A DNA stretch of 64,000 bases from Glycine soja (lineage: Eukaryota; Streptophyta; Magnoliopsida; Fabales; Fabaceae): NCBI RefSeq assembly GCF_004193775.1, contig NC_041021.1, positions 20,428,632-20,492,631 of the forward strand. Reading direction: 5' to 3'. Under the pieces are notes generated by a model, which searched no databases, was not told where the DNA came from, and saw only the letters and a list, made by a program, of their open reading frames with translations. Position numbers and translations under genes: made by a program. Numbering within the stretch: position 1 is the stretch's first letter; the number at the start of each line of letters is the position of its first letter. Of this stretch, positions 55,975 to 64,000 are shown one piece after another.

Positions 55975-56967
55975 TGATACTGAGGACAGATGTCGTACAG
56001 GATGTCACGACATCGCGCTTCAGAACATGCAGATTGTATATGACAGTATGAACAGATTAAATAAGTAAATAACACAAGAGAATTGTTAACCCAGTTCGGT
56101 GCAACGTCACCTACATCTGGGGGCTACCAAGCCAGGGAGGAAATCCACTAAAATAGTATTAGTTCGAAGATCTAACAGCCACTGTATACAACCTTCTCAC
56201 CTAACCACTACCCATGCAACTTCTACCTAAGAGCCACTCTTAGATATGAGAACCCCTCTCACTCCCTCTCAATCACTCACCCATGTTTACAAACAAATCA
56301 AAGACACACCAGAGATTGCTCTCTGAACAATAGAGATCAACTCTACACACTCAGGTCCAACACTTGATGTTAGGGTAGCATCAAGGTGGCTCACAAAACA
56401 CTCAAGTCACAAAACTCACAAAATAACTCTTCAATCTCTGACTTGATTAAAAACCCGTGCAGCCTTCATGTTTATATAGCAGTGTACGTATCTGGGCTGC
56501 AACAACTTGCGCTGGATAAGCTCTATCATTCTCCTGAAAAATCTGCACTTAAAGATCTAAAAGATAAAGTTTTATCTTTTAGTTTTTATCTTCAATCTCT
56601 AATCCCTGAACGAAACTATTCAAGTTTGTAATTCAATCTTTAATTATCTTTTAATTCGTTCCTAAAGATAGAGCTCCTAATCTGTTGCTGACTGCACATT
56701 AATCTGTTAAAGATATAACAGATTTATGTGTCCAGTATTTTCGGGCAGGATGTCCTGGACATTGTATCCGACATCGTGGATCCTGCAGCTTCAATTCTTC
56801 ATTTGTCATTTTATCTTGCCTTGTGCATTGTGCAGCCCAATCTGATTCCTTGACATAATGTTAGACATCATGTGCAGCAACTCCAGCTTTCCTTCATTGT
56901 CTAAGTGCTTATGTTTTAACAAAATTTTAGCCAATCTTTTAAAACTAAGTAAAGCTAAGCACTAACA
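55975..56967 (-). repeat. 3' LTR of element E
   Basis: 993 bp, from TGTTAGTGCTTAGC (56967, minus strand) to CCTCAGTATCA (55975). It contains two copies of the GATGTC/GACATC triad (55989 and 56749) and a decayed one near 56857. A TATA-like TATATAAACATG lies near 56475 on the minus strand. Its target duplication partner is outside the window. Confidence 0.88.
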
Positions 56968-57533
56968 ATCTCCCCCTTTGGCAAATTTTGTCTAAAACAT
57001 ACTTAGACACTTCCTGAGCAGGTACGAGCAGTCATGCAAGTGGGATCAGCAACTTTCATTATCAGAGTAATCAAGCACAGCAGTATCTGTAGTGGTGACA
57101 GCAAAATTCTGCAAGTTGCAAATCTACAAGTCTTTTCCAGGATGTCAAGACATCTCACGTGACATCAGCTTTCTGCTCCCCCTGTCTCCATGCTCTTACT
57201 GCTGTGAAGTGAATATTCTGCTAGGCAGCAGTTCACTGCAGCATCTTCTATCAGCTACTAGTTTCAGTAGCTTACATCAATCATCATCAGCAGCAGCAGT
57301 ATAAATACTACTCCCCCTCAAAATCATATAAATACTACTCCCCCTCAAAATCATAAATCATGCATAATATCCTACTATACCAATCTCCCCCTTTTTAGAC
57401 AGAATTTGGCAAAAGTAGAATGCATGAAATTAATGTACAAATATTACAGACCAATAACAATCAATTGTTCAAAGGGACATGCCCCAATAGCTAGTAAGAG
57501 TAAAAAGCAAAAGAAAAAATAAAGGTCTGATGG
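56968..57533 (-). promoter_or_regulatory. 3' UTR of element E with reiterated polypurine tracts
   Basis: On the minus strand CCAAAGGGGGAGAT (56968-56981) abuts the LTR and is the likely functional tract. Similar tracts occur near 57177, 57313, 57339 and 57384; the 57313 and 57339 ones belong to a 26-bp tandem duplication (57303-57355). One GATGTC/GACATC triad lies at 57141-57166. No ORF. Confidence 0.8.
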
Positions 57534-62500: not shown

Positions 62501-64000
62501 TCACCAGGAATTCTTTAACTCCTGTCATGTGTCTGGAACAGCCGCTATCTAGGTACCAATCTTCCTTAGCTGATGCTCTAAGTGAAGTATGAACAACAAG
62601 ACTAACAATCTTGTGTTTTGGAACCCACATCATCTTCCTTCCGCTGCTGCTACTTTGAGTTCCATGATGTGGATGGCCATGTAGATGATAGCAAAAGGGC
62701 TTTATGTGACCATACTTGCCACAGTAGTGACACCTCCACTTCTTTCTTTTGCTCTTTTTCTGCTGCGTTCCATGATGTCGAGACCGATGTTGTGACATCG
62801 TGGCTCCAGTGCTGTTTTTGGCAGGAACAAATTCTGTCATGGTTGTTCTACCAGCAGATTTATGATTAAATCCAAGTCCTCTCTGGTTTCCAACATTCTT
62901 CCCAAGCTGTAGCACCTCATCAAGCATATCTGAGCCTTTATTCAGCATCTTTATTGATTTTGTCATGTTTTCCAGTTTAGAGTTCAGAAAACCAATTTCT
63001 CCTTTAAGCTCAGAGATCTCCTCTTCATGTGCCTCCTTCTCAGCCTCCAGATTTGCAATGATCTTCTTCAGTTGAGCTTCTTGCTGAAGGATCTTCTCAC
63101 TTTTGATGCATAGTTCTCTATAGGATATAGCAAGCTCATCAAAAGTGATTTCAATATCACTTGAATCTTCATCAGATTCAAATCTCCCAGTGAGTGCATT
63201 CACATCTCTGTCAGAATCACTTTCTTGTTCACTCTCTGTATCATCAGACCAACATACAGAAAGTCCTTTCCTCTGCTTCTTGAGATGGGTGGGACATTCA
63301 GCTTTCATGTGTCCATAGCCTTCACACCCATGGCATTGAATTCCTTTGCTGTGACTGGGCTTTTCATCTGACTTCTTCTGGTATTCACTACCTTTCCTGA
63401 TGTCGAAAGGGATGTTCCGGACATGTGGTTTCTGCCTCCTGTCCATTCTTTTCAGCACTTTGTTGAACTGTTTTCCAAGGAGCACAAATGCGTTAGTCAG
63501 ACCTTCATCAGTATCCAGGTCATACTCATCTTCTTCTCCTTCATCATTGGACACGAACGCCAGGTTCTTGCTCTTCTTTTCAGTCCTATCCGAGAGTCCT
63601 AGCTCAAAGGTTTGAAGGGAACCAATGAGTTCATCTACTCTCATGTTGCAAATGTCTTGGGCCTCCTCTATTGCAGTGACTTTCATGTCAAATCTCTTAG
63701 GCAAAGATCTGAGGATCTTTCTCACCAGCTTTTCATCTGTCATCCTTTCTCCCAAGGCAGTGCAAGCATTGGCAATTTCAAGAATGTTCATGTGGAAGTC
63801 ATGAATGCATTCTTCCTCCTTCATCTTCAGATTTTCGAATTTTGTAGCCAATAGTTGCAATCTGGACATCTTCACTTTGGAGGTTCCTTCATGAGTGGTT
63901 TTCAGAATCTCCCATGCATCCTTGGCAACTGTGCATGTGTTGATCAATCTGAAGATATTCTTGTCAACTCCATTGAATAGGGCATTCAAGGCTTTGGAGT
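59502..64000 (-). CDS. gag-pol: Gag-Pol polyprotein of the SIRE1-type element, N-terminus outside window
   Basis: One open frame of about 1,498 codons reaches the window edge. Counting from the codon at 63989: gag; CCHC knuckle 1 at residues 219-232 and knuckle 2 at 420-433 with an acidic coiled coil between; protease DSGCS at 481-485; integrase zinc block (His 609 and 614, Cys 643 and 646); catalytic Asp 674, Asp 737 and Glu 773, a D-D(35)-E spacing; RT active site YVDD at 1180-1183; RNase H Asp 1344, Glu 1386, Asp 1420. Stop at 59502. No stop, frameshift or missing catalytic residue seen, so it may be functional. Confidence 0.95.
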   Translation of the reverse strand, partial: SKALNALFNGVDKNIFRLINTCTVAKDAWEILKTTHEGTSKVKMSRLQLLATKFENLKMKEEECIHDFHMNILEIANACTALGERMTDEKLVRKILRSLPKRFDMKVTAIEEAQDICNMRVDELIGSLQTFELGLSDRTEKKSKNLAFVSNDEGEEDEYDLDTDEGLTNAFVLLGKQFNKVLKRMDRRQKPHVRNIPFDIRKGSEYQKKSDEKPSHSKGIQCHGCEGYGHMKAECPTHLKKQRKGLSVCWSDDTESEQESDSDRDVNALTGRFESDEDSSDIEITFDELAISYRELCIKSEKILQQEAQLKKIIANLEAEKEAHEEEISELKGEIGFLNSKLENMTKSIKMLNKGSDMLDEVLQLGKNVGNQRGLGFNHKSAGRTTMTEFVPAKNSTGATMSQHRSRHHGTQQKKSKRKKWRCHYCGKYGHIKPFCYHLHGHPHHGTQSSSSGRKMMWVPKHKIVSLVVHTSLRASAKEDWYLDSGCSRHMTGVKEFLVNIEPCSTSYVTFGDGSKGKITGMGKLVHDGLPSLNKVLLVKGLTANLISISQLCDEGFNVNFTKSECLVTNEKSEVLMKGSRSKDNCYLWTPQETSYSSTCLSSKEDEVKIWHQRFGHLHLRGMKKIIDKGAVRGIPNLKIEEGRICGECQIGKQVKMSHQKLQHQTTSRVLELLHMDLMGPMQVESLGGKRYAYVVVDDFSRFTWVNFIREKSDTFEVFKELSLRLQREKDCVIKRIRSDHGREFENSKFTEFCTSEGITHEFSAAITPQQNGIVERKNRTLQEAARVMLHAKELPYNLWAEAMNTTCYIHNRVTLRRGTPTTLYEIWKGRKPTVKHFHIFGSPCYILADREQRRKMDPKSDAGIFLGYSTNSRAYRVFNSRTRTVMESINVVVDDLTPARKKDVEDDVRTSGDNVADTAKSAENAENAENSDSATDEPNINQPDKSPSIRIQKMHPKELIIGDPNRGVTTRSREIEIVSNSCFVSKTEPKNVKEALTDEFWINAMQEELEQFKRNEVWELVPRPEGTNVIGTKWIFKNKTNEEGVITRNKARLVAQGYTQIEGVDFDETFAPVARLESIRLLLGVACILKFKLYQMDVKSAFLNGYLNEEVYVEQPKGFVDPTHPDHVYRLKKALYGLKQAPRAWYERLTEFLTQQGYRKGGIDKTLFVKQDAENLMIAQIYVDDIVFGGMSNEMLRHFVQQMQSEFEMSLVGELTYFLGLQVKQMEDSIFLSQSKYAKNIVKKFGMENASHKRTPAPTHLKLSKDEAGTSVDQSLYRSMIGSLLYLTASRPDITFAVGVCARYQANPKISHLNQVKRILKYVNGTSDYGIMYCYCSDSMLVGYCDADWAGSADDRKSTSGGCFYLGNNLISWFSKKQNCVSLSTAEAEYIAAGSSCSQLVWMKQMLKEYNVEQDVMTLYCDNMSAINISKNPVQHSRTKHIDIRHHYIRDLVDDKVITLEHVATEEQVADIFTKALDANQFEKLRGKLGICLLEEL

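Follow-up and report, generated by a model that had tools for sequence, protein, structure and literature searches.

A three-part GATGTC/GACATC motif repeated along a SIRE1-type retrotransposon of Glycine soja is a putative DNA recognition site

Repeated motifs in Sireviruses and other elements

Sireviruses, the genus of retrotransposons named after SIRE1, carry repeated motifs that are described as palindromic and as concentrated in the long terminal repeat (LTR), in its upper half, and just upstream of env (PMC2829016). In Table 3 of that study, a CGG-CCG core is present in 12 of the 13 repeated motifs, Tnd-1 being the one without it, and the 13 elements tabulated do not include SIRE1 (PMC2829016). 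We analyzed a stretch of 64,000 nucleotides of the Glycine soja genome (NC_041021.1, positions 20,428,632 to 20,492,631; hereafter the window), whose end is occupied by a minus-strand LTR retrotransposon of SIRE1 type with approximately 8 kb inside the window (positions 55980-64000). A three-part unit, GATGTC-N2/3-GACATC followed by a second GACATC, is repeated along this element, and the nearest known thing to it is the Sirevirus palindromic repeated motif.

Several properties are shared with the published motifs. Both have dyad symmetry, here in GATGTC-N2/3-GACATC and in the outer GATGTC...GACATC pair, although the SIRE1 unit as a whole is asymmetric. Both reach at least eight copies per element (11 in the window plus two in the 5' LTR in our case), both have a family-specific sequence, and both occur in the LTR of a Sirevirus. 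In contrast to the published motifs, the SIRE1 unit has three parts and an ATGT/ACAT core without CGG-CCG, and whereas those motifs are clustered and non-coding, it is spread through open reading frames (ORFs), where it varies little at third codon positions. Neither GACATC nor GATGTC occurs in the main text of PMC2829016, and the titles and opening lines of abstracts listed by searches of the SIRE1, Sirevirus and retrotransposon literature gave no report of the motif. The layout described for Sireviruses, with palindromes in the LTR and ahead of env, is also seen in a second Sirevirus-like element of the window, at 3575-12762 (PMC2829016).

A further comparison is offered by the anti-silencing system of VANDAL21 in Arabidopsis, in which VANC proteins keep the transposon transcribable (PMC5735166, PMC10398659). 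In that system a short motif is dense in one family and rare elsewhere, with different families having different motifs, and the same is true here for the families and the window examined. Unlike the VANC21 motifs, which are mainly non-coding tandem repeats in one orientation, the SIRE1 units are also coding, occur in both orientations and belong to an LTR retrotransposon. The domain of VANC-like binders is DUF1985. At the level of Pfam, which could miss a distant likeness, there was no VANC-like match in the env-like ORF (E <= 10) or in gag-pol (E <= 0.001).

Intragenic enhancers of retroelements form a third point of reference. Ty1 has enhancer sites within TYA. The pol gene of HIV-1 is reported to contain intragenic AP-1 sites (PMC3079759). 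The SIRE1 motif resembles both in that putative regulatory DNA sites lie inside the coding sequence of the element. To our knowledge, the Ty1 and HIV-1 enhancers comprise few host-factor sites in one region, whereas the SIRE1 unit recurs element-wide.

A conserved motif built into coding sequence

A preliminary description of the sequence had listed eleven copies of the motif. We scored half-sites against GATGTC, GACATC and GACATC (18 bases in total), with spacers left free within 1-4 and 5-7 bases. The motif was present at all eleven positions and on the strands given, with 15 to 18 of the 18 half-site bases, and the outer half-site starts were 20 or 21 bp apart at every site, as had been claimed. 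The reported spacers of 2 or 3 and then 6 bases also held, except at 57772, where they are 3 and 5. On the motif strand the consensus is roughly RATGTY-N2/3-RACATC-N4TC-GACATC, and the position of the middle half-site floats by one base among the eleven sites. Eight of them lie in ORFs, two clear ones in the window's LTR and one in the linker; seven copies of the asymmetric unit are in forward and four in reverse orientation. Including the 5' LTR beyond the window edge, the whole element has thirteen clear units and two weak ones (Table 1).

The element part of the window contained 14 matches with at least 15 of the 18 bases, 10 with at least 16, and 6 with at least 17, the 14 matches corresponding to 12 distinct sites (those at 57772 (+) and 59727 (-) overlap listed sites, and 56844 is weak). 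There were no matches at any of these cuts in the remaining 56 kb of the window and 3 at a cut of at least 14, while 20 dinucleotide shuffles of the element gave means of 0.95 at 14 or more, 0.2 (maximum 2) at 15 or more, and 0 at the two higher cuts. When every gapped pair of 6-mers was scored without prior knowledge of the motif, GATGTC-N14-GACATC came out on top for the element. Across the 1.01-Gb genome, the three-part pattern with exact half-sites and permitted spacers of 1-5 and 4-8 bases matched 6,476 times (3,282 forward and 3,194 reverse), while a reversed-pattern control gave 0 matches in either direction. By eye, every one of the approximately 100 matches listed spans 26 or 27 bases and has a second spacer of 6; they form five spacer classes, which correspond to the linker site, the env site at 58596 and the two LTR sites, one of the latter in two variants. 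The motif was found in 33 of 33 SIRE1 pieces, and none of the 30 loci examined from another family of elements contained it.

To separate codon choice from peptide content, codons were swapped among positions encoding the same amino acid, with both proteins unchanged, in 100 shuffles. There are ten coding matches at a cut of at least 15, which represent eight sites, as two sites match on both strands; the shuffles retained a mean of 1.47 (maximum 5). The corresponding values were 0.45 (maximum 2) versus 7 observed at 16 or more, 0.09 (maximum 2) versus 3 at 17 or more, and 3.68 (maximum 9) versus 10 at 14 or more, such that no shuffle equalled the observed count at any cut. The peptides thus contribute a little to the motif and codon choice contributes most.

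The forward copies inside the ORFs had been said to occupy all three codon phases and to encode unrelated peptides. Only two phases are used by the eight coding copies: 57772, 58596, 58978, 59740, 61264 and 63399 share one (6/8), while 60401 and 62774 are in another. The peptides are indeed not all alike (HVPDIVSTS, HVRNIPFDI, GMSNEMLRHF and TMSQHRSRHH are among them), but the four antisense copies in the same phase give similar ones (DVELDVPDI, DADKDVPTS, NVEQDVMTL and DVEDDVRTS). The region of reverse transcriptase (RT) and RNase H aligns without gaps to the other Sirevirus-like element of the window, with 58% identity over 406 residues, and that element has different residues at both motif positions. 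The gap-free alignment indicates that the motif copies in RT and RNase H arose by substitution in place rather than by insertion.

We then compared 11 other copies of the element on contig C1, out of approximately 16 recognized by eye among the exact matches listed. Seven of the eight coding sites were present in 11/11 copies and the eighth, 61264, in 10/11, with half-sites mostly identical. Variation was counted at seven coding sites and in 150 bp on either side, ignoring gaps and excluding the window copy; 58978 was left out as its alignments cross tandem repeats, and the sites had first been chosen in a related copy. Variable columns made up 3/125 in half-sites versus 290/2,075 in flanks (one-sided Fisher p = 1.6e-5), and when the masks were slid in phase along the flanks, 3 or fewer variable columns were found in 1 of 20,000 trials. 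At third codon positions the difference was 1/42 versus 163/692 (p = 2.4e-4). For variants shared by at least two copies, the counts were 0/125 versus 112/2,075 (p = 0.001; slid masks, 29 of 20,000) and, at third positions, 0/42 versus 66/692 (p = 0.017). An RT piece (60200-60950) was 100% identical, after rounding, in all 150 copies that were scored out of 14,067 candidates genome-wide; this is a sign of recent spread, and conservation was accordingly tested among close Glycine copies only.

The excess over codon shuffles and the low variation at third positions indicate that selection acts on the nucleic acid and that the peptide is not its target. The earlier proposals of a motif excess over synonymous shuffles, of constraint at synonymous sites and of a spacing kept in other copies, here the genome matches listed and the 11 further copies, were all borne out, and they support the view that the motif has its role at the DNA or RNA level. 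Of the roles suggested earlier (protein binding, packaging, heterochromatin or small-RNA targeting), the evidence leans towards protein binding to double-stranded DNA.

A putative protein-binding site and its alternatives

The family-specific dyad, the two-turn geometry, the low third-position variation and the element-wide spread point to a protein-binding DNA site as the best explanation. We rate it slightly better than even that the motif is a double-stranded DNA recognition site of a sequence-specific protein and, jointly, that this protein acts on chromatin over the full length of the element. One unit would comprise an inverted ATGTC/GACAT half-site pair whose starts are two helical turns (20-21 bp) apart, with the third half-site between them, and such units occur in the two LTRs, in the linker and in the ORFs, where they are built into the codons. 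A protein bound along the whole element could keep it transcribable and its chromatin less silenced, as modelled on the action of VANC at VANDAL transposons; the binder may be encoded by the element or may be a host factor. Since the sites do not accumulate around the promoter, an element-wide chromatin role is preferred to a plain enhancer. Units of the whole element are mostly 0.4-0.9 kb apart, roughly one per 750 bases. The gaps between the eleven sites of the window range from 382 to 1510 bp, and in this copy the sites are spaced more evenly than expected by chance (P = 0.003 for the coefficient of variation of 0.40; P = 0.0008 for the smallest gap).

The second Sirevirus-like element carries GTAATCGATTAC palindromes in both LTRs and in the interval that separates its RT frame from its env-like fragment. 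Counting palindromes with at most 2 mismatches, this element and a relative at 48829-52823 together have 18 pairs (three of them LTR duplicates), and all 18 are spaced at 20 bp (3 pairs) or 21 bp (15 pairs). Compared with GATGTC/GACATC, the two element types have unrelated dyads with a common two-turn period and a different layout. A gapped-word search of positions 4301-9700 of the second element found no such motif among the best six.

The env-like ORF is a candidate binder on account of its basic, nuclear-signal-like stretches. Against this assignment, the PF20167 domain is shared with another family of elements, in which the motif was found in 0/30 loci. In the table of Bousios and colleagues, 4 of the 13 elements bearing repeated motifs are listed without env (PMC2829016).

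Several observations weigh against a DNA site with an element-wide role. The 11 compared copies are close kin from one contig, are not independent and were chosen for intact non-coding motifs. Site 58978 scores just 14/18 in most other copies, and the weak site 62006, although present in 11/11 copies, is conserved no better than its surroundings (1/18 versus 14/307 columns variable). The even spacing weakens when the weak site 56844 is included (P = 0.02 for the coefficient of variation and 0.19 for the smallest gap), nothing stands out about the largest gap (P = 0.23), and in most other copies a linker or LTR site has a duplicate close by. The 18 GTAATCGATTAC pairs are partly copies of one another. 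Finally, hairpin folding at the sites is stronger than in shuffled sequences, as is usual for inverted repeats, which leaves some weight on an RNA role.

A protein-binding DNA site with an element-wide role must also be weighed against a more conventional one, in which a host activator binds the motif and the internal copies serve as intragenic enhancers. We regard this as possible but rather unlikely. Stress-linked host activators are known for Tnt1 and ONSEN, and Ty1 has internal enhancer sites. Consistent with such a function, one LTR site lies approximately 270 bp upstream of a TATA-like sequence, and other Sirevirus motifs were matched to stress-factor sites by Bousios and colleagues in 2010 (PMC2829016). 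However, the eight coding sites are spread out, the nearest LTR being between 0.8 kb and several kb away. The unrelated palindromes of two element types within one window and the approximately 100 exact matches listed, all of which by eye fall in SIRE1 spacer classes, suit a family-specific binder better than a shared host factor.

An RNA-level signal, with half-sites pairing in the genomic RNA as hairpins for packaging, dimerization or nucleocapsid recognition, or giving rise to small RNAs, appears unlikely, though several results are compatible with it. At 11/11 sites, the sense strand had a lower minimum free energy than the average of 100 mononucleotide shuffles, by approximately 0.4 to 4.4 standard deviations. 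Half-sites 1 and 3 pair at 63/66 positions versus a mean of 61.4 for re-dealt half-sites, a value reached by 68 of 2000 shuffles, and palindromes of maize Sireviruses are described as attracting small RNAs (PMC10760457). Pairing between half-sites 1 and 2 (58/66), in contrast, is below the re-dealt mean of 59.1 and was reached by 2000 of 2000 shuffles. The core is near-invariant in sequence itself, beyond what pairing alone would ask for: 2 of 132 cells deviate from ATGT/ACAT at the inner four half-site bases of the 11 sites, with no compensating change, although this invariance partly reflects the picking of sites for their likeness. An Rfam scan of 55900-64000 gave no family at gathering score. 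An asymmetric unit found in both orientations fits DNA better than recognition of single-stranded RNA, and from these sequence features our judgement leans towards double-stranded DNA over RNA as the probable target.

It is very improbable that the motif is a by-product of a recurring peptide such as DVExDVxTS. The four antisense same-phase copies do give similar peptides, and codon shuffles of the ORFs retain more matches than dinucleotide shuffles of the element (1.47 versus 0.2), but both 18/18 copies are non-coding (LTR and untranslated linker), the other four coding copies give different peptides, and third positions vary little. Still less credible is the spread of one sequence by chance, tandem duplication or gene conversion: chance is refuted at the level of counts by both the dinucleotide and the codon shuffles, and although the linker, LTR and 58978 sites are duplicated locally in other copies, site flanks and spacers share little by eye and the RT and RNase H copies lie within the gap-free protein alignment.

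Extending the preferred reading of a protein-bound DNA site, we consider, as a speculation with a low chance of holding in full, that the motif could be an address code running the length of the SIRE1 genome. A site would be written into the codons every ~0.7 kb, a family-specific protein, possibly the env-like product, would coat the integrated element and shield it from silencing, and each Sirevirus family would have its own site with the same two-turn geometry. Apart from this speculation, the motif represents a probable cis-acting signal overlapping coding sequence across a whole retrotransposon, although Sirevirus palindromes were described as non-coding, and the little variation at third codon positions suggests that the element pays a coding cost for it. 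One short probe could directly test what reads Sirevirus palindromes, and the combination of gapped-word search and codon shuffles is a cheap way to screen other high-copy elements for hidden codes of this kind.

The host element and other features of the window

Table 1. Coordinates of the SIRE1-type element, its motif copies and the second Sirevirus-like element (window positions)
Feature	Position	Strand	Remarks
3' LTR	55967..56967	-	ends TG...CA placed by eye; aligned to 5' LTR
5' LTR	64297-65299 (window frame, beyond window edge)		from alignment to 3' LTR
env-like ORF	57534..59501	-	655 residues as translated; Pfam PF20167 Transposase_32 at residues 368-532
gag-pol frame, to window end	59502..63989	-	Retrotran_gag_2, Pol_BBD, gag_pre-integrs, rve, SH3, RVT_2
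Motif copy, 18/18	55989..56014	-	near LTR 3' end
Motif copy, 17/18	56749..56775	+	upstream part of LTR; a second one nearby in 6/11 other copies
Motif copy, 18/18	57141..57166	+	untranslated linker preceding 3' LTR; 10/11 other copies carry two, 94-112 bp apart
Motif copy, 16/18	57772..57797	-	env-like ORF; spacers 3 and 5
Motif copy, 17/18	58596..58622	+	env-like ORF; 5/11 other copies have a first spacer shortened by one base and no mismatch in the middle half-site
Motif copy, 15/18	58978..59003	+	env-like ORF; 14/18 in most other copies, tandem repeats in some
Motif copy, 16/18	59740..59765	+	RNase H region
Motif copy, 15/18	60401..60426	+	RT coding, directly past YVDD box
Motif copy, 17/18	61264..61289	+	integrase-RT linker coding
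Motif copy, 17/18	62774..62799	-	gag-pol frame, gag-to-Pol_BBD interval
Motif copy, 16/18	63399..63425	-	gag-pol frame, gag part
Weak motif-like site, 15/18	56844..56869	+	within LTR; most other copies have a weaker or altered version
Weak motif-like site, 14/18	62006..62031	+	gag_pre-integrs-to-rve interval, middle of the sole long gap
5' LTR motif copy	64319 (window frame)	-	just past window
5' LTR motif copy	65079 (window frame)	+	just past window
Second Sirevirus-like element	3575-12762		both LTRs, 99.1% identical; gag, rve and RVT_2 matches

The label SIRE1-type comes from the preliminary description and fits the copia-type pol, the env-like ORF and the Glycine host; it is a designation by these features, not by comparison with a SIRE1 reference or a tree. 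The characters of a Sirevirus, a copia-order pol with RVT_2, LTRs and an env-like ORF, are all present in the element. Alignment of the two LTRs (55967-56969 in the 3' LTR) showed 99.6% identity over 1003 bp, and the difference of 4/1003 positions indicates a young insertion. Beyond PF20167 and one chance match, the env-like ORF had no Pfam match, nor did the RNase H of gag-pol, which was placed by position and alignment alone. Two structure predictions for the PF20167 fold were both poor (mean predicted local distance difference test scores of 39 and 51). A genome-wide first look for PF20167 gave 12,269 candidates, and the best of the 150 scored resemble another abundant element family, not SIRE1. 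A search of viral contigs with the RT piece found no relatives, and the exact motif pattern matched in one 42-kb viral contig, possibly by chance.

In the second element, the PF20167 match was under the Pfam cut-off and the frames are interrupted. Its diverged relative at 48829-52823 has nine of the GTAATCGATTAC pairs, and 50595-51792 and 52316-53455 are inverted copies that are ~79% alike. Two tandem arrays were also noted elsewhere in the window. At 43332-43870, units of ~117 bp lie within a minus-strand ORF (43164-43904), and at 26643-27380, an array of ~71-bp units includes ten with a CCTGAC-N6-GTCAGG palindrome, at no more than 2 mismatches.

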